A DNA stretch of 47,994 nucleotides, taken from NCBI GenBank assembly GCA_013298995.1, contig JAAFJW010000004.1:1-47994 (forward strand), written 5' to 3'. The notes beneath the pieces were generated by a model. The model did no database searches and had not been told where the DNA came from. It saw only the letters and a list, made by a program, of their open reading frames with translations. This stretch comes from Sphingobacteriales bacterium. Lineage in GTDB: Bacteria; Bacteroidota; Bacteroidia; Sphingobacteriales; Sphingobacteriaceae. The translations under genes and the position numbers were made by a program. Positions 24,748 to 47,994 of this stretch are shown piece after piece (the first letter of the stretch is position 1; the number at the start of each line of letters is the position of its first letter).

Positions 24748-27700
24748 TTAATCAGCTTTTAAATGGGGTTTAGCTTTGGGTTTAGCAAAATGCGCTTTTA
24801 CTTTTACCCTAATCAAATACATAGATGGTACTACAATTAAGGTTAAAAAAGTAGCAAAGCTTAATCCAAAAATCATTGTCCACGATAGTGGGCCCCAAAA
24901 GGCTACGTTATCGCCACCAAAATAAATGTGTGGGTTGCCGGTACTAAATAAGGTGGCAAAATCTAAATTTAAACCAACAGCTAGCGGTATTAAACCCAGC
25001 ATTGTGGCGGTGGCGGTTAGTATAACGGGTGTCATACGGGTGCGGCCTGCTTCTAGTATTGCCTCGAAACCATCCATACCTTGTTCCATCATTAAATCGG
25101 CAAATTCTACCAATAATATCCCGTTTCGTACTACAATCCCCGCTAAGGCAACAATACCAATACCCATCATTACTATCGACATTTCCATACGGAACAAGCT
25201 AATACCCAGCAAAACACCTATAATACTAAATAAAATTTCGCTTAAAATAATTAGTGGTTTACCAATAGAATTAAACTGTATAACCAATATAATTAAGATT
25301 AAGAAAAACGAAGTTAATAAGGCACCACCTAAAAATGCAGCGGTTTCTTTTTGCTCTACCTGTTCGCCTGCCATATTTACTTGTACGCCTTCGGGTTTTC
25401 TAAAATCGGCTAATTCGTTTTCTATATTGGCTACTACTTCGTTAGGGTTATAATCGCCCAATACGTTTGATGATAGCATAATAATACGCTTTTGTTGCTT
25501 CCGTTTTATGCCTCCATACGTATTTACATAATCTATATTGGCAAACGATGATATAGGCACTTGCCTTACCATACCGCCCATGCCCATATCCCGATAGGTA
25601 ACTTTAATGTTTCTAAGTTGCTCTAAACTATTGCGTTGGTCTTTTTGCGCTCGCAAGTTTATTTCATAATCTTCGTCGGCATCTCTAAATTTAGAAACTT
25701 CTTTACCGTACAATGCAGTACGAATTTCCATGGCTATTTGCCCAGTAGAAATCCCTTCTCGGTTAGCCCTTTCACGGTTAATATCAAAAATTATTTCGGG
25801 TTTATTGTTTTGGAAATCAGATTTTAGCTCTTCTACACCAGCAATATTTTTAGCTACCAAATAGTTTTTTAAACGTACCGATGTTTGCACCAACGAATCT
25901 AGGTTATCGCCTGTAATTTCAATACTTATAGGTTTGGAGGTGGGTGGCCCCGATTGTTCTTGGGTTACCGAAATCTCGGCCCCAGCCACCCCTTTTATGG
26001 CTTTACGCATGGCTTCTAAATACTCGATAGAGCGTTTTCCGCTACGTTCGCCAAACTCTACAAAAGCTACCGTAACTTTACCACGGTTGGGGTAATTACC
26101 TTGGTCTTCATCTTGTGGGTCGGTTACGCCTACGGTAACGTTCGATAGTATAGACGATACATTGTGCCTACCCAAACTATCTACCACTTGGGTAACTTTT
26201 TTCTCGATAGATTTTGTAACCTCGTTGGTATATGCTTGGTCGGTACCTGTGGGTAGCGTTAAGTAAACGTATGCAAAATTAGGATCGGCTTCGGGGAAAA
26301 ACACAAACTTGGGTTTCATAATTCCTGTAAAAATTATCGAGAAAACCAATAATCCTAATGTACTACCCAAAATGGTGTATGGGCGGTGCAATGCCCAGTT
26401 TAAAAATCTTGCATATTTATCTAAAACTTTTGGCCAAGTATATTTTTGGAATTTTCGGATAGCTTTTTCTAATATAAAATGTTGCATTAAATACAAAAAT
26501 GCCATTAGCACTACAAAATTGCCAAAGCCAAAGTTTATTAAATAAGCCACCACTGTTGCCCCTCCAAAATACAATAGCGTACGTTTTACTTTTTTATCGA
26601 AAGTGGGTTTGTAAACCTCATCGGCAGTATGCGATTCCATAAAATCGACCGCAAAAACAGGGTTTATAATGTAAGCCACCACCAACGATGCCAGCAAAGT
26701 GATAATTAACGTAATAGGTAAAAAAAACATAAACTGCCCAATTACGCCAGGCCAAAAGGCTAGGGGGATAAAAGGGGCTAGGGTAGTCATGGTGCCCGAA
26801 AATACAGGTAAAAATACCTCGCCTGCGGCCATTTTTGCGGCTTGCTTTATAGGTACTTTGCCATTATCAAAAATACGGTGGGTGTTTTCTATAACCACCA
26901 CGGCATCATCAACCACAATACCTAAAGCAAGTAAGAACGAGAAAAGCACAATCATATTCATGGTGAAACCAATGGTTGGCATTAACAAAAATGCCACACA
27001 CATGGATAGCGGTACCGATAACGCCACAAAAAATGCGTTGGTAATCCCCATAAAAAACATGAGGATGAGGGTTACCAAAATAAAACCAATAACAATGGTG
27101 TTTATTAAATCGTGTAGGGTTACACGGGTTTTGTCCGATTGGTCGCCTGTGGTAACAATTTCTAAGCCTTTCGGAAATTCTTTGGCTTTCATTTCGGCCA
27201 GTAAAACACGTATTTTATCAGATGCCTCAATCAAGTTTTGCCCCGACCGTTTTTTAACATTTAACGTAATTACGTTTTTACCCGCCAGCCTAGCAAACGA
27301 TTCTTGTTCTTTAAAACCATCCACCACTTGGGCAATATCTCGCAAATAAACCGATGCGCCTGATGGTGTTTTTATAATGGTGTTTGATATTTCGGTGGCA
27401 TCTTTAAACTCTTTTTTGATATTTAAAGTTCGGCGAATGCCATCGCTAGGTACTGTACCGCCCGATGCCGAAATGTTTTCGTAACCAATGGCCATCTCAA
27501 TATCGCGGAACGATATTTGTGTAGAAGCCATTTTGTTCATATCTACATTTATTTGCACTTCGTTATCTAGGGCACCCACCAAATCAACCCCCGAAATTTC
27601 GGGCATAGCCTCAATACGGTCTTTAAGGTTTTTGGCGTACTTTTTAAGGGTTTTTAAGTCGTAATCGCCCGAAAGGTTCAAGTACATAATAGGCAAATCG

Positions 27701-28125
27701 GCAAGGTTAATGTCAATAACCTCGGGGTCGTCGGGTAGGTTATTGGGTAAATCTTGCTTGGCTTTGTCCACCGCATCTTTAATGCGTTGTTTGGCATCTT
27801 TAATAGAAACCTTTGAGTTAAACTCGGCAGTGATAAACGAAAAATCCTGAAAAGAATTAGAGGTAATACTTTTTAAACCTTGTACACCTTTAATTTGCGT
27901 TTCTAATTGCTTGGTTACCAAGTTTTCCATATTTGCAGGCGATGTACCAGGGTAAATGGTACGCACAAATATTTTCGGGATAGATATTTCGGGGAAATTT
28001 TCTTTTGGTAAGCTATTGTAGGCAAAATATCCTGCTATTAAAAGCAATACGGTAAGCACATAAATAGCCGTTTTATTATCAATAGCCCAGCTTGATGGGC
28101 CAAATTCTTTGTTACTATCTTTCAT
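24748..28125 (-). CDS. RND efflux transporter, inner-membrane permease subunit
   Basis: Proton-driven tripartite pump permease of the AcrB/HAE-1 type, 1125 residues. The TM4 proton-relay pair is present in GIVVDDAVVVIENTH, and TM10 reads GIVVRNGILLVEFA, with Arg where AcrB-type pumps usually have Lys. Two large periplasmic porter regions follow TM1 and TM7. The protein is about 80 residues longer than AcrB, mainly because of a segment near 490-570 (after DFMESHTADEVYKPTFDKK) that adds hydrophobic stretches between TM6 and TM7, and an insertion STGNPHIYFGGDN before the last spans. It is the last gene of the tetR-tolC-MFP-RND operon, 39 bp after the adaptor. Substrate unknown. Confidence 0.93.
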   Translation of the reverse strand: MKDSNKEFGPSSWAIDNKTAIYVLTVLLLIAGYFAYNSLPKENFPEISIPKIFVRTIYPGTSPANMENLVTKQLETQIKGVQGLKSITSNSFQDFSFITAEFNSKVSIKDAKQRIKDAVDKAKQDLPNNLPDDPEVIDINLADLPIMYLNLSGDYDLKTLKKYAKNLKDRIEAMPEISGVDLVGALDNEVQINVDMNKMASTQISFRDIEMAIGYENISASGGTVPSDGIRRTLNIKKEFKDATEISNTIIKTPSGASVYLRDIAQVVDGFKEQESFARLAGKNVITLNVKKRSGQNLIEASDKIRVLLAEMKAKEFPKGLEIVTTGDQSDKTRVTLHDLINTIVIGFILVTLILMFFMGITNAFFVALSVPLSMCVAFLLMPTIGFTMNMIVLFSFLLALGIVVDDAVVVIENTHRIFDNGKVPIKQAAKMAAGEVFLPVFSGTMTTLAPFIPLAFWPGVIGQFMFFLPITLIITLLASLVVAYIINPVFAVDFMESHTADEVYKPTFDKKVKRTLLYFGGATVVAYLINFGFGNFVVLMAFLYLMQHFILEKAIRKFQKYTWPKVLDKYARFLNWALHRPYTILGSTLGLLVFSIIFTGIMKPKFVFFPEADPNFAYVYLTLPTGTDQAYTNEVTKSIEKKVTQVVDSLGRHNVSSILSNVTVGVTDPQDEDQGNYPNRGKVTVAFVEFGERSGKRSIEYLEAMRKAIKGVAGAEISVTQEQSGPPTSKPISIEITGDNLDSLVQTSVRLKNYLVAKNIAGVEELKSDFQNNKPEIIFDINRERANREGISTGQIAMEIRTALYGKEVSKFRDADEDYEINLRAQKDQRNSLEQLRNIKVTYRDMGMGGMVRQVPISSFANIDYVNTYGGIKRKQQKRIIMLSSNVLGDYNPNEVVANIENELADFRKPEGVQVNMAGEQVEQKETAAFLGGALLTSFFLILIILVIQFNSIGKPLIILSEILFSIIGVLLGISLFRMEMSIVMMGIGIVALAGIVVRNGILLVEFADLMMEQGMDGFEAILEAGRTRMTPVILTATATMLGLIPLAVGLNLDFATLFSTGNPHIYFGGDNVAFWGPLSWTMIFGLSFATFLTLIVVPSMYLIRVKVKAHFAKPKAKPHLKAD

Positions 28126-28164
28126 CTTTTTTTATGTTTTTGATGTGTGATTTATTGAGGGTAA

Positions 28165-29256
28165 TTAAAACTTTACCAAATCGCCTTCGTTTAAGCCATT
28201 AAAGCCAAGGGTAATTACCTTATCGCCCGCTTTAAGGCCGCTAATAACTTCGGCATTGCCATTGTAAATTTTACCTACTTTTATGTTGGCTTTTACCACT
28301 TTAGCATCTTGCGAAAGCAAAACAAAATCGCCGTTTTCTGATTTTTGTATAGATTTTACGGGTACGGTTAAGGCGTTTGCTTTTTTATAATCCACAATTT
28401 TTAAAATGGCAAGCATATTTGGTCTAAAGCTAGCTTTAGATGGTAGCTTAACTTCTACATTAAAACTACGTGAAGCAGGGTCGATGTTTTTAGATGCAAA
28501 AGATATTTTGCTTAGCAAAGAATCTTGCGCATCGGGCACTAAAACTTCTACCTCATCGCCCATATCTATTTTGCCAGCATACGTTTCGGATACCAATGCT
28601 TTAGCTTTTAAAAGCGAAGCGTTTACGATACGCATACCAGGCAAGCCAGGTTGTATGGCTTGGCCAATTTTCCAGTCCATTAAATCAACTGTTCCGCTTA
28701 TAGGTGCAGTAACTTTGTACATTGATGCCTGCTGTTTTACTAGGGCCAATTGTTTTTCTAAACCTTGTTTTTGGGTTTTGGCACTTAAAAACTGTACCTC
28801 GGTACCTATTTTTTGGTCCCAAAGGTTTTTTTGGCGGTTAAATAAGTTAGTAGCCAAATCTAATTGCGTTTCTACCTGTGCAATGCTTTGGCGCAATACG
28901 GCATCATCAAGCTGTGCAAGCACTTGGTCTTTACTTACACGTTGCCCTATGTTTACCATAATATTGGTAATTACACCTGGTGCTTGTGCGTTTACTTGTA
29001 CGTTTTGCTCGGCATCAACTTTACCTTGTATTTCTATATAGTTTTTAAAAGTGCTTGTGCTAACCTCAATTACCGAAACATCTTTATAAATTTTTTCTTG
29101 CTTTGCGCCAATTTCGGTTTCTAGCTTTGCAATGCTGCTGTTAATTTCGGCTTGTTGTTTTTTTAACTCGGCCAGTTGGGCAGGTTTATCTTTGGGGGCG
29201 TTATTACAAGCTGCAAATAATAAAGCGGTTAGTGTGGTGAATAGTAATTTTTTCAT
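28165..29256 (-). CDS. RND efflux periplasmic adaptor (membrane fusion protein)
   Basis: 363 residues, lipid-anchored through the lipobox LLFAAC (Cys16). An N-terminal coiled segment (about 28-55, KKQQAEINSSIAKLETEIGA) is followed by the first half-lipoyl motif NVQVNAQAPGVITNIMVNIG and the second half-lipoyl VTAPISGTVDLMDWKIGQ around an alpha-hairpin. A beta-barrel and membrane-proximal domain then end in VISGLKAGDKVITLGFNGL. It links the RND permease to the TolC-type channel. The gene stands between them in the operon. Confidence 0.93.
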   Translation of the reverse strand: MKKLLFTTLTALLFAACNNAPKDKPAQLAELKKQQAEINSSIAKLETEIGAKQEKIYKDVSVIEVSTSTFKNYIEIQGKVDAEQNVQVNAQAPGVITNIMVNIGQRVSKDQVLAQLDDAVLRQSIAQVETQLDLATNLFNRQKNLWDQKIGTEVQFLSAKTQKQGLEKQLALVKQQASMYKVTAPISGTVDLMDWKIGQAIQPGLPGMRIVNASLLKAKALVSETYAGKIDMGDEVEVLVPDAQDSLLSKISFASKNIDPASRSFNVEVKLPSKASFRPNMLAILKIVDYKKANALTVPVKSIQKSENGDFVLLSQDAKVVKANIKVGKIYNGNAEVISGLKAGDKVITLGFNGLNEGDLVKF

Positions 29257-29310
29257 TTTATTTATTTTTTGGTGTTGATGATTTTTTTTTTTTGAAGCAA
29301 TTTTACGTGT

Positions 29311-30654
29311 CTATTTTATGCGACCTAATGCTTTGTCTAAATTTACTTTGTTAATTAAGGCATCGTATAGTGCGCTTATGTAATTGGTTTCGGCTTCTTT
29401 TAATGCCGTTTCGGCGGTGGTAACTTCTAAGCTGGAACCTACACCTTGCTCGTATTTTACTTTGGTAACCCGCAGTACTTCTTGTGCCAATTGGCGGTTG
29501 CTTTTTTGGTTTTCTAACGATGTTATACCATTTATATAAGCCGTTTGCGATTGGTTAATTTGTAGGTTAATACCGTTTTGTAGGTTAAATAAATCGTTAT
29601 CCGATTTTGTAACCGCCAATTTTGCTTGCTTTACCCTGTAATACCTTTGCCCGCTACTAAAAATAGGAATGTTTAATTGCAAACCAATTATAGAAGTAGG
29701 GAAACTTTTATTAAACAAGGTATTAAAATCGTTACTTAGAAAGGCTCTCGAAAAACTGCCAAACGCCGCTAATGATGGCAAAGCTTGTGCTTTATACCTT
29801 TTTAAATCTAATTGATTTAATTTTTTGCTAGTTTGCAACAAAGCATATTCGGGGCGGTTTAAATATGCCGAAGTATCGGCGGTAATGGTTTCTTTAGCAA
29901 AGCTAATATCTTCAATTTTCTCGTTAATAATTAGTTTATCGCCAATAGGCATACCCATCTGAAATTTTAATAAATTATTGTTTAAATCTAACAATCGCAA
30001 TACATTGCTACGTTCGGTTTTTATATTGTTTGATAAAACGGTTAACCTATCCACATCAATTTTTTCTACAAAACCATTTTTAAGGTATTGTTGGGTATCG
30101 TTTAGGGTTTTTTGTAAACGGCTAATGTTGGCATCTAACAAACTTAAACGTTCGTTGGCAATTAAAACCGAATAATAGGCTTGGGTTACAGCCACAGCGG
30201 TTTCTACTTTGGTACGGTTTAAGGCTCTTGCCGATAACTCTTTAAAAGTTTTTGCAGCTTGTAAGCCTACTATGTACGAACCATCAAACAATAGCTGGCT
30301 AATATTTATACCTGGGTTGGCTTGGTATTTTACCCCAAACTGTACTGGCACAACTTCGCCTGGCCTGCCAGCAAGTTCGCCAGGAATTAATGAAGTTGGT
30401 ATATCTAAAAAGTCTTGAAAATTAGCCACTCCAGTAACCTGAGGCAAGCCAATAGCCGTAGTTTCACGCACTTTATATTTGGCTATTTCTTCATCAATTT
30501 TTGCATTTAAAATAGTTGTTTGATGCTCGTAAGCATAGTTTATGCAGCTTTCTAACTTAAAGTTATGCACTTTTGTACTATCGGTTTGCGCCAATAAAGT
30601 ATTTAAGGCAAAACTTAAAACAACTGCTAATAGTAATTTTGTAGGTTTCATCAT
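29311..30654 (-). CDS. TolC-family outer-membrane efflux protein
   Basis: 447 residues with a cleavable signal ending at LNTLLAQ (near residue 23). The two internally similar halves typical of TolC are visible: ESCINYAYEHQTTILNAKID opens the first, and AVTQAYYSVLIANERLSLLD and LKEAETNYISALYDALINK mark the helical hairpins. It forms a trimeric channel with the adaptor and permease encoded downstream. Its ATG is one base after the tetR stop region, so the two are probably co-translated. Confidence 0.92.
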   Translation of the reverse strand: MMKPTKLLLAVVLSFALNTLLAQTDSTKVHNFKLESCINYAYEHQTTILNAKIDEEIAKYKVRETTAIGLPQVTGVANFQDFLDIPTSLIPGELAGRPGEVVPVQFGVKYQANPGINISQLLFDGSYIVGLQAAKTFKELSARALNRTKVETAVAVTQAYYSVLIANERLSLLDANISRLQKTLNDTQQYLKNGFVEKIDVDRLTVLSNNIKTERSNVLRLLDLNNNLLKFQMGMPIGDKLIINEKIEDISFAKETITADTSAYLNRPEYALLQTSKKLNQLDLKRYKAQALPSLAAFGSFSRAFLSNDFNTLFNKSFPTSIIGLQLNIPIFSSGQRYYRVKQAKLAVTKSDNDLFNLQNGINLQINQSQTAYINGITSLENQKSNRQLAQEVLRVTKVKYEQGVGSSLEVTTAETALKEAETNYISALYDALINKVNLDKALGRIK

Positions 30655-30655
30655 A

Positions 30656-31264
30656 TTATGGTTGGGTTTTATATTTATTAATTAATACGTGGCCGCTTAG
30701 GGTGCTTACGCCAAACAAAAAGTGTATGGTGGTTTCTAAAATCACATCGAAAAGGCTGTGGCTGCCGTTTCGCACCAAATTACATTCAAAGCTCCAGTTT
30801 ATTTGGCTTACACGTAGGGTAGCTAAAATTTCGGTGTTTAAATCGGACCTAAATATACTTTCGGCTATGCCACGTTCCAGCCCTTTTTTTACAGTATTAT
30901 AAACGTATGTGTGGTGGAAATCTAACATCAACTGGTGGGCTTTGCTGTGGTATTTTTGTAAATCGTAAAATACAGTTGGGTTTATGCCAGCAAGCATGGT
31001 TTTTAAAAAATCCATACATAAAAAAACTTCCTCAATGGCGTTGCTAGCGTTTTTGGTACGCTCGGCCATTTGGCATTCATCATCGGCAAGCATTTTGGCT
31101 ATTAGCTTGTAAACCAAATCGTCTTTATCTTTATAATAAGTATAAATTGTTTTTTTCGACATTGATAGTTGCTTGGCAATATCGTCCATAGTAACTGTTT
31201 TTATACCAAATTTCATAAACAATTTTTCGGCCTCGGCTAAAATATACTCCTCTGTTTTTTCCAT
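30656..31264 (-). CDS. TetR/AcrR-family repressor of the efflux operon
   Basis: 202 residues from the ATG at 31264 (MEKTEEYILAEAEKLF); the frame upstream offers only TTG. The N-terminal helix-turn-helix is TVTMDDIAKQLSMSKKTIYT followed by YYKDKDDLV, the hallmark of the family. The C-terminal about 150 residues are the ligand-binding and dimerisation domain. It is the first gene of the operon it most likely represses. A 10-bp inverted repeat that overlaps the promoter 25 bp upstream is the probable binding site. Confidence 0.92.
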   Translation of the reverse strand: MEKTEEYILAEAEKLFMKFGIKTVTMDDIAKQLSMSKKTIYTYYKDKDDLVYKLIAKMLADDECQMAERTKNASNAIEEVFLCMDFLKTMLAGINPTVFYDLQKYHSKAHQLMLDFHHTYVYNTVKKGLERGIAESIFRSDLNTEILATLRVSQINWSFECNLVRNGSHSLFDVILETTIHFLFGVSTLSGHVLINKYKTQP

Positions 31265-31280
31265 ATCTCTAATTCGCAAA

Positions 31281-32005: not shown

Positions 32006-33451
32006 ATGAAAAAATTAATTTACACAGCTTTAGGTGTTGCGGCACTATTTGCTACTTCATGTAAAAAAGAAAATCTTGACCAAGGTCAAAAAGCCTTAGT
32101 TGTATCTGGTGTGGTTGATACCCTTAAAGGTGATATTACCGTAAACACTACAGTTACTAAAACTACTTACCTTAAAGGTTTAGTTTACGTAAAACCAGGT
32201 GTTACTTTAACTGTAAACCCAGGTGTTACTATCAAAGGAAGCCAAGGTGGTGTTAGTTTTGATTTGGTAAACCTTGAAAACAACAAAGGAACTTTAATTG
32301 TAGAAAAAGGTGCAAAATTAATTGCAAACGGTACTGCAGCTAATCCAATTATTTGGACTTCAAACAAAACTGCTGGTACTCGCGATTTTGGCGATTGGGG
32401 TGGTATCGTAATTTTAGGAAACGCTCCTATCTTTACTTCTACAGGTGCTGCTACAAATATTTTCGAAGCTTTAACTGCTGTACCTAACACAGGTGGCCGT
32501 AACTCATACGGTGGTACAATTGCTAACGATAACTCAGGTTCTATGACTTACAACCGTATTGAGTTTGCTGGTGGTGTTGTTGTAGCTGCTAACAGAGAGG
32601 TTAATGGTTTAACTTTATGTGGTGTTGGTAATGCTACCACGCTTAAATACATCGAAGTATCTAACTCTGGTGATGATGCTTTTGAGTTTTTTGGTGGTAC
32701 TGTAAACGCTAGCTACCTAGTGTCTTTTGGTAACAAAGATGATGATTACGATTTTGATGAGGCTTACGCTGGTAACTTGCAATTTATTATTGCTTACCGT
32801 AACGATTTAGCTGATAACTCAGGCTCAGCAATGATTGAATTAGATAACAATGCTACTGCAGCAGTTTATGCTTCAAAAACTTTGCCTTTTATAGCTAACG
32901 CTACTTTAATAGGTCCTGCATCTACAGTAGTACGTACAATTGATGGTTCTGGTAACCCAATTGTAGGAAGCCGTTATGATGGTGGTGTTTATGTGAGAAG
33001 ATCTGGTTTAATCAGATTAGCAAATTCATTAATCATCGCTCAAGCTATGCCTTGTGCTTTTGCTTCAAGCCCTACAACTGATGCTAATTTATTATTAGCT
33101 CCTACAGCTACAGGTGCATCAGCAGTGGTTAACAATCTTTTCCAAACTAACAATTCTGGTACTTCTGTAGTAATGGATGCTAACGAATCTAACCCAATTG
33201 TAATACCTTCTCCAGCAACTGTTAACAATACCGCTTTAATTGCACAATTTACTACTTGGGGTAATCCTTTCTTAGCTAACTTTGCTGCTTTCAAATTAGG
33301 TGCTGCACTTAACCCACTACCAACTTCACCTGCTTTAACTGGCGGTATGAACTTAGCTGCTTACGGTTTTGTAGGTACTACACAACGTGGTGCGGTTAGA
33401 ACTACAGATGTGTGGACTGCTCAACCTTGGATTTCAACTGCTACAAACTAA
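32006..33451 (+). CDS. Beta-helix surface lipoprotein
   Basis: 481 residues. Lipoprotein signal MKKLIYTALGVAALFATSC (Cys19) followed by KKE. The rest is Gly/Ala/Thr/Asn-rich beta-strand repeats such as GLVYVKPGVTLTVNPGVTIK and GTLIVEKGAKLIANGTAANP, expected to form a right-handed parallel beta-helix. An acidic stretch, NKDDDYDFDEAY, may bind Ca2+. It is clearly related to the protein at 45393 (shared GTA..PI..TS, NA..LVS....D.DF..AY.G..Q.I.A.R and N.T.IGP patterns). Codons are biased to GCT, GGT, ACT and AAC, unlike neighbouring genes, which suggests high expression. Exact function is unknown. Confidence 0.8.
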   Translation: MKKLIYTALGVAALFATSCKKENLDQGQKALVVSGVVDTLKGDITVNTTVTKTTYLKGLVYVKPGVTLTVNPGVTIKGSQGGVSFDLVNLENNKGTLIVEKGAKLIANGTAANPIIWTSNKTAGTRDFGDWGGIVILGNAPIFTSTGAATNIFEALTAVPNTGGRNSYGGTIANDNSGSMTYNRIEFAGGVVVAANREVNGLTLCGVGNATTLKYIEVSNSGDDAFEFFGGTVNASYLVSFGNKDDDYDFDEAYAGNLQFIIAYRNDLADNSGSAMIELDNNATAAVYASKTLPFIANATLIGPASTVVRTIDGSGNPIVGSRYDGGVYVRRSGLIRLANSLIIAQAMPCAFASSPTTDANLLLAPTATGASAVVNNLFQTNNSGTSVVMDANESNPIVIPSPATVNNTALIAQFTTWGNPFLANFAAFKLGAALNPLPTSPALTGGMNLAAYGFVGTTQRGAVRTTDVWTAQPWISTATN

Positions 33452-38981: not shown

Positions 38982-39153
38982 AATCAGTTTTTACGTTTAA
39001 CTGTGTTTTAAAAAATTGTTACCATAAAGTGATTATTAAGGTTATTTTTAGCTAAAAAGGGGTGGTGTGTTAACTTAAATTTAACTTTAAGTTTTTATTT
39101 AGCTGTTATATTAGCAAATATTTTAGGACTAAAACTTAGGGTTATTTGTACTT

Positions 39154-39966
39154 ATGATTAAATATTATAGCAACAAAACAGTGTTTTTAAAAATCGGATT
39201 ATCCCTCGTATGTTGGCTTGCAGTTGTAAATAATGCTTGTGCGCAAACCCTAAACCCCGATTTATATAAATGGACTTTTACCCTTGGATTAGGCTTAAAC
39301 AGCAATTCGGTTATCGACAAAAATTTTAGCCAGTTACCCTATTCGGGAAATGGTTTAGGCTTATCAGGCTCCATTACCTATCAAGGCAGGCTTATACAAC
39401 AACAATTGAACCTAACTTATGGTATGGCAACATTACAAAACAAGTACTACAACAGTTTATATGCAACCTATTTTACAGCAAACTACAGCCCCCTTTTTTG
39501 CTTAAATAATGCTAGCAATAGTGCTTTTAAAATTTTGGCTGGGCCACAAATAGCCATGCAATACGCCCGTCGAAATTACAGCGGTTTTGTAAACAATAAT
39601 TCGTCGTTCGAGTTTAGTACCTCGCTAGCTACATCCATAGAAATTAGCTACAGCATAATCCCAATAGGCTTGGTGTTAAAAAATAAAATTGCAGTACCTG
39701 TGTTTTCATATATGCAACAACCCGCTTTTGGCTTCGCAACCTTTTTTGCAAACTCGGGTAGCCAAAACTCCGTTAAAAACAGTAGTGATTTTTTGGTGCC
39801 CAATAAATTTTATCGAATTATAAACAACTTTACCATTGATAAACAATTGGCCCCAAGGCATAAAATTTTATTGAGTTACAACCTCGATTTTTATAAAATA
39901 AATACAATAAGGGAAGTAAAAAGTATTCACAATAATTTAATAGTAGCATACAGTTATTTACTTTAA
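39154..39966 (+). CDS. Predicted outer-membrane beta-barrel protein
   Basis: 270 residues with a signal peptide that ends near NNACAQ (residue 31). The mature sequence has alternating amphipathic strands (WTFTLGLGLNSNS, LGLSGSITYQGRL, QQQLNLTYGMA, LVVSYNLDFYKI-like near the end) and finishes with VAYSYLL, ending in hydrophobic residues. This matches small porin-like barrels of Bacteroidota. It starts a plus-strand run with the S41 peptidase 2 bp later, opposite to the glycosyltransferase cluster. A glycan-export or surface role is only suggested by position. Confidence 0.65.
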   Translation: MIKYYSNKTVFLKIGLSLVCWLAVVNNACAQTLNPDLYKWTFTLGLGLNSNSVIDKNFSQLPYSGNGLGLSGSITYQGRLIQQQLNLTYGMATLQNKYYNSLYATYFTANYSPLFCLNNASNSAFKILAGPQIAMQYARRNYSGFVNNNSSFEFSTSLATSIEISYSIIPIGLVLKNKIAVPVFSYMQQPAFGFATFFANSGSQNSVKNSSDFLVPNKFYRIINNFTIDKQLAPRHKILLSYNLDFYKINTIREVKSIHNNLIVAYSYLL

Positions 39967-39968
39967 TT

Positions 39969-40994
39969 ATGTTTATAAATTTGATGGTGAAAAATAAAAT
40001 TAAAACAGTAGCCTGCTTGCTACTTACCCTATTTTTTTTGGGTGGTTGCAAAAAAACATTTAACCAGCCACAATCAAACCCCGAAGCTGTGTTTAACGAA
40101 TTATGGGGCTTTATGGATAAACACTACCCCATGTTTGCCATTAAAGAAATTGATTGGGATAAAACCTATGCGCAGTATAAAAATAGGGTTAAGCCTGGGA
40201 TGGTAGATGCCGAACTTTTTAGCCTGTTAAACCAATTATTATTTACCCTTAAAGATGGGCATGTAACTTTAATGTCGGCTACTGATACCGCTACCTACCT
40301 AGGGTTTTACAAAAACTATCCTTTAAATTTTAACCTAGCTAATATTAAAAACAATTATCTGTTTAACGATTTTAAAAAAGCAGGACCAGTAATGTATAAA
40401 ATAGTAAGCAACGTTGCTTACATATACTATGCTTCGTTTGCTCAAAACATATCTGATGCCGAGTTAGATATATTTTTTAATGATATAAAAGCCACAAAAG
40501 GATTAATTATTGATGTACGCAACAACACAGGCGGAAACCCCGCAAACGCCGAGAAATTTTTTAGCCGTTTAATAAACCAAAAAACGCTGGTAAAATACGA
40601 GGTAATTAAAAACGGCCCCGGGCGTAACGATTTTTTTGAACCTAAACCGTTTTATATATCACCCAACGGGCAAACCTACGCCAAACCAATAATTTTATTA
40701 ACCAATAGGCTATGCTTTAGCACCTGTAACGATTTTGCCCTTTACATTTCATTATTGCCCAATGCCCAAATAATGGGCAACCCCACAGGCGGTGGCGCAG
40801 GCTTACCCTATAATTATATATTAGCCAACGGCTGGAAACTGCAATATTCGGCTACTTACACCCTTTCGCCCAAAATGCGAAACATCGAAAACGGCATACA
40901 ACCCAACCGCACTATTAATTTTGAACCACAAGACGAAAATAATGGTAAGGATATTATTTTGGAAACTGCATTTAATACCCTTTCTTTAGAGTGA
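39969..40994 (+). CDS. S41-family peptidase lipoprotein
   Basis: 341 residues. The second in-frame ATG at 39984 gives a compact lipoprotein signal, VACLLLTLFFLGGC; either start is possible. An N-terminal helical domain (about 25-120, FNELWGFMDKHYPMF and LKDGHVTL) precedes the protease core: GLIIDVRNNTGGNPANAEKF is the conserved strand-loop, and ILLTNRLCFSTCNDFALYI contains the probable nucleophile Ser, followed by GNPTGGGAG. No PDZ domain is obvious. Surface or periplasmic. It is probably co-transcribed with the preceding barrel protein. Confidence 0.87.
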   Translation: MFINLMVKNKIKTVACLLLTLFFLGGCKKTFNQPQSNPEAVFNELWGFMDKHYPMFAIKEIDWDKTYAQYKNRVKPGMVDAELFSLLNQLLFTLKDGHVTLMSATDTATYLGFYKNYPLNFNLANIKNNYLFNDFKKAGPVMYKIVSNVAYIYYASFAQNISDAELDIFFNDIKATKGLIIDVRNNTGGNPANAEKFFSRLINQKTLVKYEVIKNGPGRNDFFEPKPFYISPNGQTYAKPIILLTNRLCFSTCNDFALYISLLPNAQIMGNPTGGGAGLPYNYILANGWKLQYSATYTLSPKMRNIENGIQPNRTINFEPQDENNGKDIILETAFNTLSLE

Positions 40995-42097: not shown

Positions 42098-42200
42098 ACA
42101 CTTTTATATGCATAAGGCTTATCGCAGTTTTTATTAAAAAAACGCCAAGTATTTAATGTTTACTTAACATTTATTTAACGTTATTCATATTTAGCTTTCC

Positions 42201-42208
42201 TATTTTTG
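42201..42208 (+). promoter_or_regulatory. Candidate -7 box of the first TonB-dependent receptor gene
   Basis: TATTTTTG followed by C matches TAnnTTTG. It lies 35 bp before the chosen ATG at 42244. No TTTG is present at -33. Confidence 0.4.
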
Positions 42209-42243: not shown

Positions 42244-45200
42244 ATGTTTCAAACTTCTACAAAAACCTACTTCTTAAAATTTTTGTTTTTAGCCCTATTT
42301 CTATTTTGTTTTAATATAGGGTTCTCTCAAATCCGTAACGGATATTTAAAAGGTTACGTTATTGATGGTTCTACCAATAAAAAAATATTAAATGCCAAAA
42401 TATCTCATAGCGGTGTATCCATAAATACCATCTATAAAAATACAGAAACGGGTATCGATGGAAGTTATATATTAGAAACCGACCCCGAAACGTACACCAT
42501 AACCTATTCTGCAAAGGGGTTTCAAACCAAACAAATCGAAGGCGTAAATATTAGCGAAAATAACCTCAGCTATTTAGACGTAGTTTTGTACCCTGTAACC
42601 AACCCCAACTTTAACGTTAATGGTTTATCATTAACCACCGATTCGTTAAATTTTGCAGATTCGGTTAAGTCAACAAATTTTAGGGCCGAACATTACGCTG
42701 TTGCTAACCTATCTCAAAAAAACTCAGCCGATTTTCAGTTGCTATCCTCCGAAACCATACAACCAGGGATTGATAAAAATGCCAGTTTTGTATTAAAACG
42801 TTTAAACGGATTGGTGGTTTTAGATAATCCTAATAACCAACAATTACAAACTTTAACTATACGAGGCTTAGGCCAAAGGTATAATCAGGTAACGCTAAAC
42901 GGTGCACTTTTTAATTCGTTTGATGCCACAAAACGCAATTTCGCACTAGATTTTATCCCTACCGAAGCTATTGATAATGTAAGTTTAACTAAAAGTGCCG
43001 ATCCTTTTACCCCAGCCGATTATTCGGGAGGATCTATAAATATAAATACCAAAGAGTTTCCCGAAAAAGATTTTATTTACGCCCAAGCGGGCAGCGGTTT
43101 TTCGCAGTACAGCATTGATAAAAATTTTTTGGGAGATAAAACTGGTGGTGGTGCAGAGTTTTTGGGCTTTGGCGGTAAAAGCCGAGATTTACCAGCCGAG
43201 TTTCCTAACCATAAATCAGAATTTGAATTTAATAAACTTAATGTACAAGAACAGGTTAGGCTTTCTAAAATGCTGACTACTAATTTAAGTCCCAAAAACT
43301 TTGGTAACACAAGCCCAAATGCTAATTTTATATTTGGTTACGGAAAAACCCTATACCTTAAGGGTGGAGAAAAACTTGGCTTTATTGCTTATATAAAGCA
43401 AAAACATAATAACCTTATCGAAGATTTTGAAACCCAAGCCATACCTGATGTGGCCAATAACCCATTTCCTTTTAGCCAACAAAAATTGTTGGTAAAAGCA
43501 CAATCTATCAACACTAGGTTTATCAGTAATGCTGACTTAGGCGGCTTTTTTAATGCCACCATTGCCTTTAATAAAAGTAAAATATCTTTTAAGAATATGT
43601 TGGGTACTATGTTAATTAACAACTTAACTGTAAAACAACGTTACAAAAAATATGATGAAGACATAAAAGCTAGTAATGGTGTAAATTATTTTGTTGACGA
43701 TAAAAAATTATGGGTATCGCAATTATCGGGTACGCATAGCTTAGGTAACGATGGTAACTTTAAACTAAATTGGAATGCCAACTATACTTATTTTAAACAA
43801 AAAAACCCAGATGACCGCAACTTTTTATTACAGCGAGATACCATTACCAATAAGTATGAACTAGCAAACAATAGGTTTGATTTTATAAACTCGGGCCGTA
43901 AATGGACAGAAACCAGCGAAAAAAGCTTTTTTGGAGATATAAACATTCAAATACCATTTAACCTGCTAAACCATGCACAAGTATTATCGGGCGGTATTAA
44001 TATACAAACCAAAAACAAAGTGTTATTTACCGATTTATTAATGTACACAGGCAAAGGATTTACCAGCCCCGATAGCCTATTAGCTGCCGACCGCTACTAC
44101 CAAGGTGGTTTAACCCTTACCAACTATTTTATTAAAGACATAAACTTACGCGACGGAGTAAATGTTGCGGATAACAGTAAGGGTAATTATACGGCTTCAT
44201 CTAACATTGGTGCATCGTACTTAAAATTAGAAAGTAAAATTACCAATGCATTAACTGCCAATGTAGGCTTTAGGTTAGAAACCAGCAGTAATTTAATATC
44301 TAACATCGAATACAGAAATGAGCCAGGTTTTAAATACCCGCAGCTATATACCATGAACGAAAACTCGAAAATTGTAGATTATAACCTTTTACCATCATTA
44401 AAAGTAAACTATAAAGCTGCTAACGATATTACCGTTTATGCACTGTATTACAAATCGTTAAACAGGCCACAATTACAAGAACTATCGCAATACCGTAGTT
44501 TCGATACGCATGCTTCGATAGTAAACATAGGTAACCCATTATTAGCCTTAACCACCATTGATAACATAGATTTAGGCATTAATGTATATAAAATTAAAGG
44601 TACTAGTATAAGCTTAAGCGGTTTTTATAAAAAAATAGACCAACCGATAGAAAACGTTTTATCTACCTATGGCAATACATTTGGTGTTTTACAATCTACA
44701 CCATTTAATATGCCTACGGCAACTATTTTAGGCATCGAGTATGCTATACAATCAAAACTCGATTTTATTTCAAAAAGGTTAAAAGACCTTACTTTTTTTA
44801 CCAATGCAAATTATGTAAAATCTAAAGTAGAAAAAGGTTTTATACGCAGTAGCCGTACACCTCAAATAGAAGAACATACCCTTAGCGGAAGTCCAAATTA
44901 TACTATAAATGCAGGTTTAACTTACAGTAAACCCAAAATTGGCTCTGTTACCGTATTGTATAACACAACTGGCGATTATGTTACCGCAGTAGGCTCGGGT
45001 ACGGTATATAAATTGGCCAACGGTAACTCGGTTAAAGCCATTCCCGATTATGTAGTTAGAGGTAACCACAGGTTAGATTTACAAATGAGTAAAAAACTAT
45101 TAAAATCTAAAGCGCAAATAATATTTGGAGTTAACAATATATTAAACCAAGCCGATATTGTTTACCAAGACCTTAACGGCAATAAAAAGTTTGATAAACC

Positions 45201-45324
45201 TGTAAAACTAACTATAAACAACACTGGCGAACAGGGTTATTTACAAAGAGGAGTTGACAATACCGTAATAAGTATAAGAGCGCAGCCATCTTATTATTTA
45301 ACGTTTTCTTATACATTTTACTAA
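42244..45324 (+). CDS. TonB-dependent outer-membrane receptor
   Basis: 1026 residues from the ATG at 42244; a GTG at 42220 would add 8 residues ahead of the signal peptide. The signal peptide ends near CFNIGFSQ. A carboxypeptidase-regulatory-like domain (about 25-115, GYLKGYVIDGSTNKKI) precedes the plug (about 165-285: TLTIRGLGQRYNQVTLNGAL and YSGGSININTKEFP) and a large beta-barrel ending in YYLTFSYTFY with the terminal aromatic residue of outer-membrane proteins. It imports a ligand using TonB energy. It is not a typical SusC, since no SusD follows; instead a beta-helix lipoprotein gene begins 68 bp downstream. Confidence 0.92.
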   Translation: MFQTSTKTYFLKFLFLALFLFCFNIGFSQIRNGYLKGYVIDGSTNKKILNAKISHSGVSINTIYKNTETGIDGSYILETDPETYTITYSAKGFQTKQIEGVNISENNLSYLDVVLYPVTNPNFNVNGLSLTTDSLNFADSVKSTNFRAEHYAVANLSQKNSADFQLLSSETIQPGIDKNASFVLKRLNGLVVLDNPNNQQLQTLTIRGLGQRYNQVTLNGALFNSFDATKRNFALDFIPTEAIDNVSLTKSADPFTPADYSGGSININTKEFPEKDFIYAQAGSGFSQYSIDKNFLGDKTGGGAEFLGFGGKSRDLPAEFPNHKSEFEFNKLNVQEQVRLSKMLTTNLSPKNFGNTSPNANFIFGYGKTLYLKGGEKLGFIAYIKQKHNNLIEDFETQAIPDVANNPFPFSQQKLLVKAQSINTRFISNADLGGFFNATIAFNKSKISFKNMLGTMLINNLTVKQRYKKYDEDIKASNGVNYFVDDKKLWVSQLSGTHSLGNDGNFKLNWNANYTYFKQKNPDDRNFLLQRDTITNKYELANNRFDFINSGRKWTETSEKSFFGDINIQIPFNLLNHAQVLSGGINIQTKNKVLFTDLLMYTGKGFTSPDSLLAADRYYQGGLTLTNYFIKDINLRDGVNVADNSKGNYTASSNIGASYLKLESKITNALTANVGFRLETSSNLISNIEYRNEPGFKYPQLYTMNENSKIVDYNLLPSLKVNYKAANDITVYALYYKSLNRPQLQELSQYRSFDTHASIVNIGNPLLALTTIDNIDLGINVYKIKGTSISLSGFYKKIDQPIENVLSTYGNTFGVLQSTPFNMPTATILGIEYAIQSKLDFISKRLKDLTFFTNANYVKSKVEKGFIRSSRTPQIEEHTLSGSPNYTINAGLTYSKPKIGSVTVLYNTTGDYVTAVGSGTVYKLANGNSVKAIPDYVVRGNHRLDLQMSKKLLKSKAQIIFGVNNILNQADIVYQDLNGNKKFDKPVKLTINNTGEQGYLQRGVDNTVISIRAQPSYYLTFSYTFY

Positions 45325-45392
45325 AAAGCAAAAACTATTAACCCGTTCTAATTTTAATAAAATATTTAATTTATTAACAAAGAAATTCTATA

Positions 45393-46757
45393 ATGAAAAA
45401 AAATAAATTTATATACTTACTTACTGCTATTATTTTGTTTGGTGGCTTAATTGTTAGCTGTAAAAAACAAGAAGACATTACTATTAAAACACCAAAGCCC
45501 GAAAAAAATATTAGTGCATTTAAAGTTAGTAACAATTTTCCGAAAGTAATGCACCTTTACAGCGATACCGTTTATACGATTGATGAGGTTTTTAACCGCT
45601 TAGACGGAGAACAATTAATTATTGATTCTGGTACACTTATTAAAGTAGGCAAATTTGATAAAAATGTGCCCTCTGGTAGCTCCATTGGTGGTATATTTAT
45701 TGGGCCAGGTGCTAGTATGGTAGCTAATGGTACGGCACAAAAACCCATTGTTTTTACCAGTAGTACACCTAAAGGTTTACAAGATGTAAATTGGCAGGGT
45801 ATTTATATAAAAGGTAAATCATACAATAACAACGGAGGGGCAAGCGGTAGCCCAACCGATTTTTCTTGCTCGCTTAAATATGTTAGGGTAGAGTTTGCAT
45901 CATTAACTTTTGATGGCGTAGGTAGCCAAAGCCGAGTTGAAAACGTACAGGTAAGTTATACTAAACCAAAATCGGCATTTACCATAATGGGTGGTACTTT
46001 TAATGCCCACAATTTAGTATCGTATGCCTGTGGTGGTGATAACGATTTTTACATAGCTTATGGCTATACGGGTAAAATGCAAAATATAATGGCTATTCGC
46101 CATCCTTATATAGCCACATTGGGTAATGGTAATCTGCAGGCTATAGCTGGCGTATATATCGAAAACAATACCAATAAAAAAGCCTTACCCGCCACATATC
46201 CTATACTGTCAAATTTAACGGTTATTGGCCCTGGTTTACAAAATGGCATTAACCCTAATTACGCTAGGGCTACTGCAATTATTACAACCAATAATGCCAA
46301 ATTTCAAATCAGAAATTCAATCTTTTTAGATTATCCAGTAACTACTTGGGCTATGGGCGATAGAGATTCGTACAATAATTTACGTGAAAAAAGAGCAGAG
46401 GTTGATTACTCAATTTTTTATACAAAAACTTTACAAAGCCCGTTTTTTTTAATTCCTAGTGGGGCTGCACCATTTACATCGACTAATTTTGCAAACATTA
46501 TTGCGTCTTACAGCAATAATAGCCGTACAGATGTTGGTGCCCAAGCGTTTTATAAAAACCCGTTTAGTTACGAAGATATTGATTTATCGGTTAACCCTAA
46601 CACTACCATATTGTATAAAGCTAATTTTGATGCTCCTAATTTTAATGATACTTTCTTTAATAAAGTAAACTATATAGGCGCAATAGGTACCGATAATTGG
46701 TTACAAGGATGGACAAATTTTACACCTCTAAGAACCAACTATAACCAAGCCCAATAA
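45393..46757 (+). CDS. Beta-helix surface lipoprotein, paired with TonB receptors
   Basis: 454 residues. Lipoprotein signal with lipobox LIVSC (Cys23) followed by KKQ. The mature part has strand repeats such as GTLIKVGKFDKN, GGIFIGPGASMVANGTAQKP and GGTFNAHNLVSYACGGDNDF. It shares with the protein at 32006 the GTA..PI..TS motif, W.GI, an acidic D.DF..AY.G segment and N.T.IGP, so the two are paralogues. It lies between two TonB-dependent receptor genes with short spacers (68 and 33 bp), all on the plus strand, and is probably the surface partner of one or both receptors. Confidence 0.8.
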   Translation: MKKNKFIYLLTAIILFGGLIVSCKKQEDITIKTPKPEKNISAFKVSNNFPKVMHLYSDTVYTIDEVFNRLDGEQLIIDSGTLIKVGKFDKNVPSGSSIGGIFIGPGASMVANGTAQKPIVFTSSTPKGLQDVNWQGIYIKGKSYNNNGGASGSPTDFSCSLKYVRVEFASLTFDGVGSQSRVENVQVSYTKPKSAFTIMGGTFNAHNLVSYACGGDNDFYIAYGYTGKMQNIMAIRHPYIATLGNGNLQAIAGVYIENNTNKKALPATYPILSNLTVIGPGLQNGINPNYARATAIITTNNAKFQIRNSIFLDYPVTTWAMGDRDSYNNLREKRAEVDYSIFYTKTLQSPFFLIPSGAAPFTSTNFANIIASYSNNSRTDVGAQAFYKNPFSYEDIDLSVNPNTTILYKANFDAPNFNDTFFNKVNYIGAIGTDNWLQGWTNFTPLRTNYNQAQ

Positions 46758-46790
46758 CCCCTACAATATTTTAAACATAAATATAAAAAT

Positions 46791-47994
46791 ATGAAGTTTT
46801 TTTACAGCTATAAAATGTTAAACCCTAACTATTGCACTATTAAAAAAATAGTAGCCTTTATTTTAGTAATGTTTAATTTTTTGCTTTGCGCCCAAGCGCA
46901 AAATAACAATGGTAAAGTTGCAGGTAAATTGTACGACGCCGCTACCAACGAAACCCTTATAGGCGTGGTGGTAAGTGTAGAAGGATTAAAAACCTCTACC
47001 TCAACCGACCCTAGCGGTAATTACGTACTATCTTTACCAGCAGGTACATATACCCTAAATTTTAGGTACATAGGCTACCAAACCAAGCGTTTAAGTGGGG
47101 TAGAGGTTAAAAAAGCACAAACTACGTTTCAAAACATTATTTTAAAATCGGCATCGCAGCAATTGCAAAGCGTGGTGGTAACATCTTCAGTAAAAAAAGA
47201 AAGCCAATCGGCTGTGTACTCGGCACAAAAACGTAGTTCGGCAGTATCAGACGGTATATCGCAAGAAGCTATACGCAAAACTCCCGACAATAATGCCGCC
47301 CAAGTGCTTACCCGTGTTACAGGCATAAATATACAAGACAATAAATTTGTGGTAGTGCGTGGCCTTGGCGACCAATACAACCAAACCATGGTAAACGGCG
47401 TACAAATGACCAGTACCGAAACCGATAGAAATGCTTTTTCGTTCGATTTAATACCCGCTGCCGTTATTGATAATATAGTAGTAAACAAAACCGCCACGCC
47501 CGATATGCCAGGCAACTTCGCGGGTGGCGTGGTACAAATAAATACCAAAGATTTTCCAGATAATAATTTTATATCGGTTAATATACAAGGAGGCTTCTCG
47601 GACCAAACCATTGGTAGAGATTTTTACTCGGATAAACGCACCCCACTAGAGTTTTTAAGCTTTGGCGGAACCAGCAGAAACTTACCCAAAGATTTTCCGT
47701 TAAGTACCAGTAGAGTACCCGAAACGGCCTTAAACACACAAGAACGCTACCGTTACTTGCGTATGTTGCCCAATAATTTAGTACCTATAAACAATGGCCC
47801 ATCGCAGCCTAACCAGCAGGTACAAATAGGTTTTGGGCGAACCATTAACTTAAAAAACAATACCAAATTTGGTATTGTAGCTGCATTAAACCAACGTAAA
47901 ACGGAGTTGATAGAGGAAGAGATTAGCGGAAGCGGGCCTACCTTTTTTGAAATAAATACTACTAAGCCTAGTGCAATTTTTCATCCTTTAGTAG
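46791..47994 (+). CDS. TonB-dependent outer-membrane receptor (partial, runs off the window)
   Basis: Open from the ATG at 46791 to the window edge without a stop, 401 residues visible. Signal peptide ending near LLCAQAQ; carboxypeptidase-regulatory-like domain (about 40-125, GKVAGKLYDAATNETLIGVV); then the plug with ITRVTGINIQ-like and VVVRGLGDQYNQTMVNGVQ motifs, TPDMPGNFAGGVVQINTKDF, and the first barrel strands. The plug closely parallels that of the receptor at 42244 (RGLG..YNQ..(L/V)NG, F..D.IP..(V/A)IDN), so the two are paralogues. A 3' end beyond 47994 is expected. Confidence 0.93.
   Translation, partial: MKFFYSYKMLNPNYCTIKKIVAFILVMFNFLLCAQAQNNNGKVAGKLYDAATNETLIGVVVSVEGLKTSTSTDPSGNYVLSLPAGTYTLNFRYIGYQTKRLSGVEVKKAQTTFQNIILKSASQQLQSVVVTSSVKKESQSAVYSAQKRSSAVSDGISQEAIRKTPDNNAAQVLTRVTGINIQDNKFVVVRGLGDQYNQTMVNGVQMTSTETDRNAFSFDLIPAAVIDNIVVNKTATPDMPGNFAGGVVQINTKDFPDNNFISVNIQGGFSDQTIGRDFYSDKRTPLEFLSFGGTSRNLPKDFPLSTSRVPETALNTQERYRYLRMLPNNLVPINNGPSQPNQQVQIGFGRTINLKNNTKFGIVAALNQRKTELIEEEISGSGPTFFEINTTKPSAIFHPLV

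Follow-up and report, generated by a model that had tools for sequence, protein, structure and literature searches.

The stretch of DNA analysed here, hereafter the window, is contig C146 (JAAFJW010000004.1), 47,994 nucleotides from a Sphingobacteriales bacterium whose genome assembly comprises 211 contigs and 2.78 Mb. At its 3' end the window encodes two TonB-dependent receptors (TBDRs) with a lipoprotein between them, the unit that is the subject of this report, and a lipoprotein of the same family lies alone farther 5'. The features of the unit, its continuation on contig C54 and the related features of the window are as follows.

42244..45324, + strand: TBDR1, TonB-dependent receptor, 1026 amino acids (PF00593 at 4.4e-27, PF07715, PF13620)
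45393..46757, + strand: LIP1, ElpS-like beta-helix lipoprotein, 454 amino acids, acidic ladder lost (family profile match)
46791..47993, + strand: TBDR2, N-terminal part, cut by the contig end (PF07715, PF13715)
L075:2124-3482 on C54: LIP2, third family lipoprotein of the genome, 18 bp after the end of TBDR2
42151..42183, + strand: PhoB-box-like element, three tandem 11-bp repeats ATTTAATGTTT ACTTAACATTT ATTTAACGTTA (the two best 22-bp motif matches in the 48-kb window)
42201..42208, + strand: possible -7 promoter element TATTTTTG (by its position in the sequence)
32006..33451, + strand: LIP3, lone paralogue with complete acidic ladder, 481 amino acids (LIP1 paralogy, ladder alignment, AlphaFold model)
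39969..40994, + strand: S41-family peptidase lipoprotein 5' of the operon, membership in the unit uncertain (PF03572 at 4.2e-24)

Gene order of the receptor-lipoprotein unit

The three genes of the unit lie on one strand and are separated by 68 bp (TBDR1-LIP1) and 33 bp (LIP1-TBDR2). Plug and CarboxypepD domains were detected by Pfam in both receptors and a barrel domain in TBDR1, and the receptor parts within the window were found to be paralogous (33% identity over 376 amino acids, E 2e-62). LIP1 carries a lipobox followed by KKQ (...VSCKKQED), and LIP3 at 32006 is its paralogue (30% over 218 amino acids, E 9e-18), both as described in the original prediction. The three tandem repeats of the PhoB-box-like element end 61 bp 5' of ATG 42244, which is favoured over GTG 42220 as the start of TBDR1 because of the possible -7 element; TATTTTTG is likened here to TAnnTTTG, which we take to be the Bacteroidota -7 consensus.

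It had been proposed that the two receptors flank the lipoprotein. The paralogy, adjacency and short spacing stand, but the receptor-lipoprotein-receptor sandwich was rejected as an artefact of the contig end, because C54 continues TBDR2 in frame and then encodes LIP2. The 267 bp at the end of the window are 98.5% identical to the 267 bp at the start of C54, the TBDR2 frame runs on into C54 (L075:3-2105) to give a joined receptor of about 1012 amino acids that is 30% identical to TBDR1 across nearly its whole length, and a gene that looks by eye like a transposase comes after LIP2. The gene order, read from the joined contigs, is most likely TBDR1-LIP1-TBDR2-LIP2, a (receptor-lipoprotein) x 2 unit; the four mismatches within the overlap may reflect strain variation or a near-identical repeat. 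When the genome was searched with the family's usual receptor, only TBDR1 and TBDR2 matched at 1e-10, and LIP3 is therefore without a receptor of its own.

Lipoprotein family, receptor pairing and acidic ladder

LIP1 was matched to a profile of 24 family members with probability 100 and E 2.7e-42, the similarity spanning about 400 columns. With this profile the family was detected in 253 of 395 genomes sampled across Bacteroidota, and among 80 near-relative genomes searched at 1e-10, 46 were positive with LIP1 as query and 64 with LIP3; an initial genome scan using LIP1 alone had confirmed nothing. Neither LIP1 nor LIP3 was found to match any Pfam or NCBIfam family, SusD included, and membership in SusD was rejected for both. 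The pair, or the lipoprotein, was also found in Alphaproteobacteria, Gammaproteobacteria and Opitutaceae.

Receptor pairing was surveyed for 77 family open reading frames (ORFs), namely those at the places matched in the near-relative searches, together with the ORFs of the window and of C54. For 62 of them, a TBDR gene was located within 400 bp on the same strand; the receptor was directly upstream of 53 and directly downstream of 9, while 2 ORFs lay at a contig end and 13 had no such neighbour. A second lipoprotein behind a first accounts for 2 of the 13 receptor-less ORFs and 1 of the 2 at contig ends. By our own estimate, made from 17 Plug matches in 2.78 Mb, chance pairing would be well under 1%. 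The expectation that the lipoprotein would have consistent receptor neighbours was thus borne out, as was that of a conserved receptor-lipoprotein unit without SusD. Housekeeping genes resembling zapA, rny and pheT (by eye) were also seen upstream of pairs; this order is conserved but functionally uninformative, and a functional tie was rejected.

The predicted beta-helix fold was upheld by AlphaFold models, both of which were coiled and all-beta, with mean confidence scores (pLDDT) of 73.2 for LIP3 and 72.4 for LIP1. The LIP3 model fits right-handed parallel beta-helices (VIA-align Z 18-22), and most of the folds closest to it belong to polysaccharide lyases, epimerases and tailspikes. A search of PDB sequences with the lipoproteins gave nothing convincing, and Foldseek returned no match at E <= 0.001.

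Eight acidic columns of the family alignment, all of them kept in 148 of 162 members, form what is termed here the acidic ladder, a feature that was found in the present survey and is not a published criterion (members with at least 6 of the 8 columns filled were counted, and D, E and N were scored as kept). In the LIP3 model, E198, E227, D249 and E278 occupy matching short strands in consecutive coils, and on the model these acids can therefore line up as a ladder. Pectate lyases hold Ca2+ by acids aligned in this way, and phosphate could be bound through a metal held at the ladder. An acidic, possibly Ca-binding patch had been ascribed to LIP1, where it is in fact largely lost: LIP1 keeps 2 of 7 aligned columns and LIP2 none of 8, while LIP3 keeps 8 of 8, and the patch is instead a feature of the family. 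In a quick tree, in which the placement of LIP3 is unsure, LIP1 and LIP2 are sisters with support 100 and both are on long branches.

Other departures from the typical family member were observed. Two genomes encode a receptor followed by two ladder-less lipoproteins (L094 60-3054, with the receptor broken into several frames, and L117 6486-9689), and the PhoB box described below is absent there (5.7 and 8.3 bits). Since these lipoproteins form a clade apart from LIP1 and LIP2, ladder loss seems, on the sequences, to have occurred more than once. A further clade (L102, L104, L111 and L119) lacks both receptor neighbours and a PhoB box, retains 6 of the 8 acids, and possibly has a different job. 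Two long ORFs (L126 6406-10269, 1287 amino acids; L135 5194-10713, 1839 amino acids) each gave two separate family matches, apparent tandem domain repeats in one protein. Within the window, LIP3 is directly preceded on the opposite strand by a resistance-nodulation-division (RND) efflux set (24748-31279) of AcrB-type pump, membrane fusion protein, outer-membrane factor and TetR regulator.

Phosphate genes and a PhoB-box-like motif beside the pairs

Genes for PhoBR, Pst, PitA, sodium/inorganic phosphate (Na/Pi) carriers or Porin_O_P were found nearby in 31 of the 80 named loci and in 8 of a further 71 regions. The named loci were the best 80 of 592 confirmed, ranked by similarity to locus L127; most of the seeds used to recognise phosphate genes were Pfam-checked, PhoB was counted at 55% identity or more over 90%, and the lone PstS assignment of L099 rests on a 28% threshold. 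The order TBDR-LIP-Porin_O_P-PstSCAB-PhoU was found at L128, PhoR-PhoU-PstB-PstA at L158 (Bacteroidales) and, outside Bacteroidota, TBDR-LIP-PstS-PstC-PstA in a row in Opitutaceae (L224 1-6198). The most telling case is plasmid pBGP9 of Alteromonas macleodii (L230 2262-16828), where the genes run phoB-phoR-pstS-2-oxoglutarate (2OG) oxygenase-LIP-TBDR-DUF3450-ExbB-ExbB-ExbD-TonB; judging by gene content, this stretch could be a self-contained cassette for TonB-driven uptake of phosphorus. In the window's own genome PstB gave no match at 1e-30, a weak negative that had no positive control alongside.

The regions upstream of the operons were found to be rich in repeats with an 11-bp period, 493 compared to about 106 in shuffles, a nearly fivefold excess, whereas other spacings gave 101-189 compared to 104-113. 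The repeat unit is TTAACAT, and a 22-bp motif, AGTTAACATTTACTTAACATTA, was derived without use of the window. At 10 bits or more the motif was present in 126 of 155 family operon upstreams (which include a few other TBDRs), compared to 4 of 155 shuffles. Among 389 neighbour genes 58 had it, and the best-scoring of these include Porin_O_P, PhoB, PitA (PHO4-type) and Na/Pi carriers. When trained on the named loci only, it matched 54 of 72 held-out regions and 17 of 360 shuffles. With both trainings, the window's two best places were 42151 and 42162, before TBDR1. By score alone the motif is not significant in 48 kb; its place is what counts. Elsewhere in the genome, the PhoB gene (63% identical to that of L127) has its own 19-bit box, and a further box, at L236, lies before a gene whose product contains the lamin-tail domain (pf00932), also present in phosphate-induced nucleases of Flavobacterium johnsoniae (PMC8115612, Table 1). 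No published PhoB box for Bacteroidota was recognised in a brief literature search, and the term was not found in the accessible part of PMC8115612.

Box and ladder were compared with D and E only scored as acids and with rows lacking a scored upstream dropped. Among ladder-bearing members, a box of at least 10 bits was present for 110 of 122 that have a receptor nearby and for 13 of 18 that do not; it was present for none of 4 members with 5-6 acids, and for 2 of 6 with 4 or fewer. A box without a ladder, as seen in the window, is thus a rare combination, and the other boxed ladder-poor row is the second lipoprotein of L140. Upstream of LIP3 the box is weak at best (11.3 bits, or 7.8 with the named-loci model). 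A weaker site was also seen at 39065-39089 (13.0 bits), before the gene 39154-39966 for a 270-amino-acid protein with no assigned function, which precedes the S41 peptidase.

Described relatives, alternatives and proposed function

Although the original prediction knew of no characterised example, two related systems have been described. In Caulobacter crescentus, ElpS (Cc0170) is a phosphate-starvation surface lipoprotein whose gene adjoins that of the receptor Cc0171 and a cluster for type II secretion, in the gene order elpS-cc0171-gspC-N (PMC2996285, Le Blastier 2010). The same order, LIP-TBDR-gspC..N, was found in Sphingomonas and likewise in Indioceanicola, and the Sphingomonas locus encodes a clear homologue of LIP3 (35%, E 2e-32; LIP1 is matched at 2e-6). 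The unit in the window differs in that the receptor precedes the lipoprotein, the pair is most likely doubled, LIP1 and LIP2 are without the ladder, and no type II secretion genes were seen beside it within the window. In F. johnsoniae, phosphate depletion strongly induces the lipoproteins FI, FII and FIII together with the TonB-dependent transporters (TBDTs) encoded next to FI and FII; FI is the most abundant exoprotein, and these lipoproteins are reported to be related to the Caulobacter protein (PMC8115612, Lidbury 2020). The pairs are Fjoh_3856 FI/Fjoh_3857 TBDT in PUSIII and Fjoh_0546 FII/Fjoh_0545 TBDT in PUSIV, the latter within the phoBR operon (PMC8115612). They resemble the window in setting a TBDT beside a beta-helix-type lipoprotein, but here two pairs most likely stand in tandem. 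PUSIII also has an S41 peptidase beside its pair (PMC8115612, Table 1), as the window does at 39969, and it has a sigma factor and FecR; neither was recognised among the ORFs beside the unit, whose locus runs off the contig, and the window's operon carries a PhoB-box-like element. Relatives of the window's S41 gene were found in none of the other surveyed regions, and L109 of another genome reads S41-FecR-TBDR-LIP. The link to ElpS and FI/FII is drawn from gene order and published descriptions, not from their own sequences. Several Caulobacter TonB receptors are under PhoB control (PMC11208175, a 2024 study). The ElpS and FI/FII systems are described by expression, localisation and partial phenotypes only; the accessible text of PMC2996285, PMC8115612 and PMC11208175 shows no substrate for them, and a limited literature search found no later functional work on FI/FII or ElpS.

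The likeness to SusC/SusD that had been drawn earlier is fair as a mode of action, with receptor and surface lipoprotein in one operon and a CarboxypepD-like receptor N-terminus, but the family is a different and already described one, in which a beta-helix takes the place of SusD. Against SusC/RagA (TIGR04056), the incomplete TBDR2 scored 67.6 of 368.25 bits and TBDR1 was not among the matches listed. The unit is not SusCD, though by analogy it may work like SusCD. BtuB/BtuG of Bacteroides (vitamin B12) likewise joins a TonB transporter to a non-SusD surface lipoprotein; its ligand differs, and BtuG is a beta-propeller.

Judged from these comparisons, the locus probably encodes an outer-membrane acquisition unit for phosphate starvation, of the same kind as ElpS/Cc0171. 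Its substrate would most likely be a compound of phosphorus rather than iron or a glycan, because of the Pho-gene neighbours and the PhoB-box-like repeats; of the iron, phosphate and glycan limitations offered earlier for expression work, the evidence points to phosphate. Several observations weigh against this reading. In most loci no phosphate genes were found, and the named loci had been selected as those most like L127, which is itself PhoBR-linked. Other boxes in the genome precede genes with no evident tie to phosphate (a nadB-like gene, by eye, is an example), the simple pattern is not in genome-wide excess (125 compared to 157 matches of the reversed pattern), and ten Markov shuffles of the window gave maxima of 12.8-20.2 bits, two of which exceed the window's 17.6. 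The operon lipoproteins LIP1 and LIP2, having lost the ladder, may not do the family's job. In Caulobacter, purified ElpS had no phosphatase activity and cc0171 was not induced by phosphate starvation (PMC2996285).

The lipoprotein might otherwise be a surface beta-helix enzyme, a hydrolase or lyase whose product the receptor imports, for instance a phosphodiesterase, a phosphatase activator or an enzyme that frees phosphorus from cell-wall polymers. The folds closest to LIP3 and the placing of its invariant acids E198, E227, D249 and E278 are in keeping with this, as metal-dependent lyases have acids so arranged, and phosphatase activity increased on ElpS overproduction (PMC2996285). Set against an enzyme are the lack of phosphatase activity in purified ElpS and the generic nature of the beta-helix fold, since Z 18-22 is reached with a wide variety of unrelated enzymes and with tailspikes. 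In addition, LIP1 and LIP2 are without the acids and yet keep operon and box; we consider an enzyme unlikely. That the unit takes up glycans in a SusCD-like manner, with no tie to phosphorus, appears very improbable in view of the PhoB-box-like repeats, the Pho-gene neighbours and what has been published on close relatives (PMC8115612), and general scans of the window recognised no carbohydrate-active enzyme (CAZyme) in the ORFs next to the pair. It would nonetheless accord with the CarboxypepD-type N-terminal domain of both receptors, with the frequent binding of polysaccharides by beta-helix proteins, and with the box-less, acid-less pairs of L094 and L117.

Ladder loss and long branches in LIP1 and LIP2, beside a LIP3 that keeps all eight columns, could also mean that the operon lipoproteins are decaying or neutral duplicates and that LIP3 alone is the working one. 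Their reading frames are intact and tightly spaced to the receptor genes, LIP1 retains its family-wide similarity, and it is LIP3 that has a weak box at best and no receptor neighbour; decay is thus judged quite improbable.

For the phosphate-starvation unit, we infer the following course. Under phosphate scarcity, PhoB would bind the 11-bp repeats before TBDR1 and activate expression of TBDR1-LIP1-TBDR2-LIP2. Each lipoprotein, a parallel beta-helix presumably anchored at the cell surface, would capture a phosphorus-containing ligand and pass it to its partner receptor, which would import it with TonB energy, and periplasmic phosphatases and inner-membrane Pi carriers would complete phosphorus uptake. 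In most family members the ligand would probably be held at the metal-bound acidic ladder on successive coils; LIP1 and LIP2, without it, would have to bind differently or serve only as a lid, while LIP3 keeps the ladder.

The kind of system is already known, and the doubled unit and the ladder loss make that of the window a variant. A wider reading, which we advance tentatively and with more doubt than belief, is that TonB-driven uptake through ElpS-type receptor/beta-helix pairs, under a PhoB box of TTAACAT repeats, is a main outer-membrane phosphorus route throughout the Bacteroidota, for phosphate, a phosphate-metal complex or an organophosphate complex, and that the two pairs here were retuned to another phosphorus ligand by ladder loss. 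To our knowledge, most Bacteroidota TonB receptors have no known substrate; here one common receptor class is tied to phosphorus through gene neighbourhood and a shared promoter element. What may be new to specialists is the PhoB-box motif, which would be usable for mapping Pho regulons across Bacteroidota, and how widely the pairs are linked to Pho genes. With lipoproteins that have and lack a near-invariant ladder in one genome, this organism would offer a natural test of what the ladder does.

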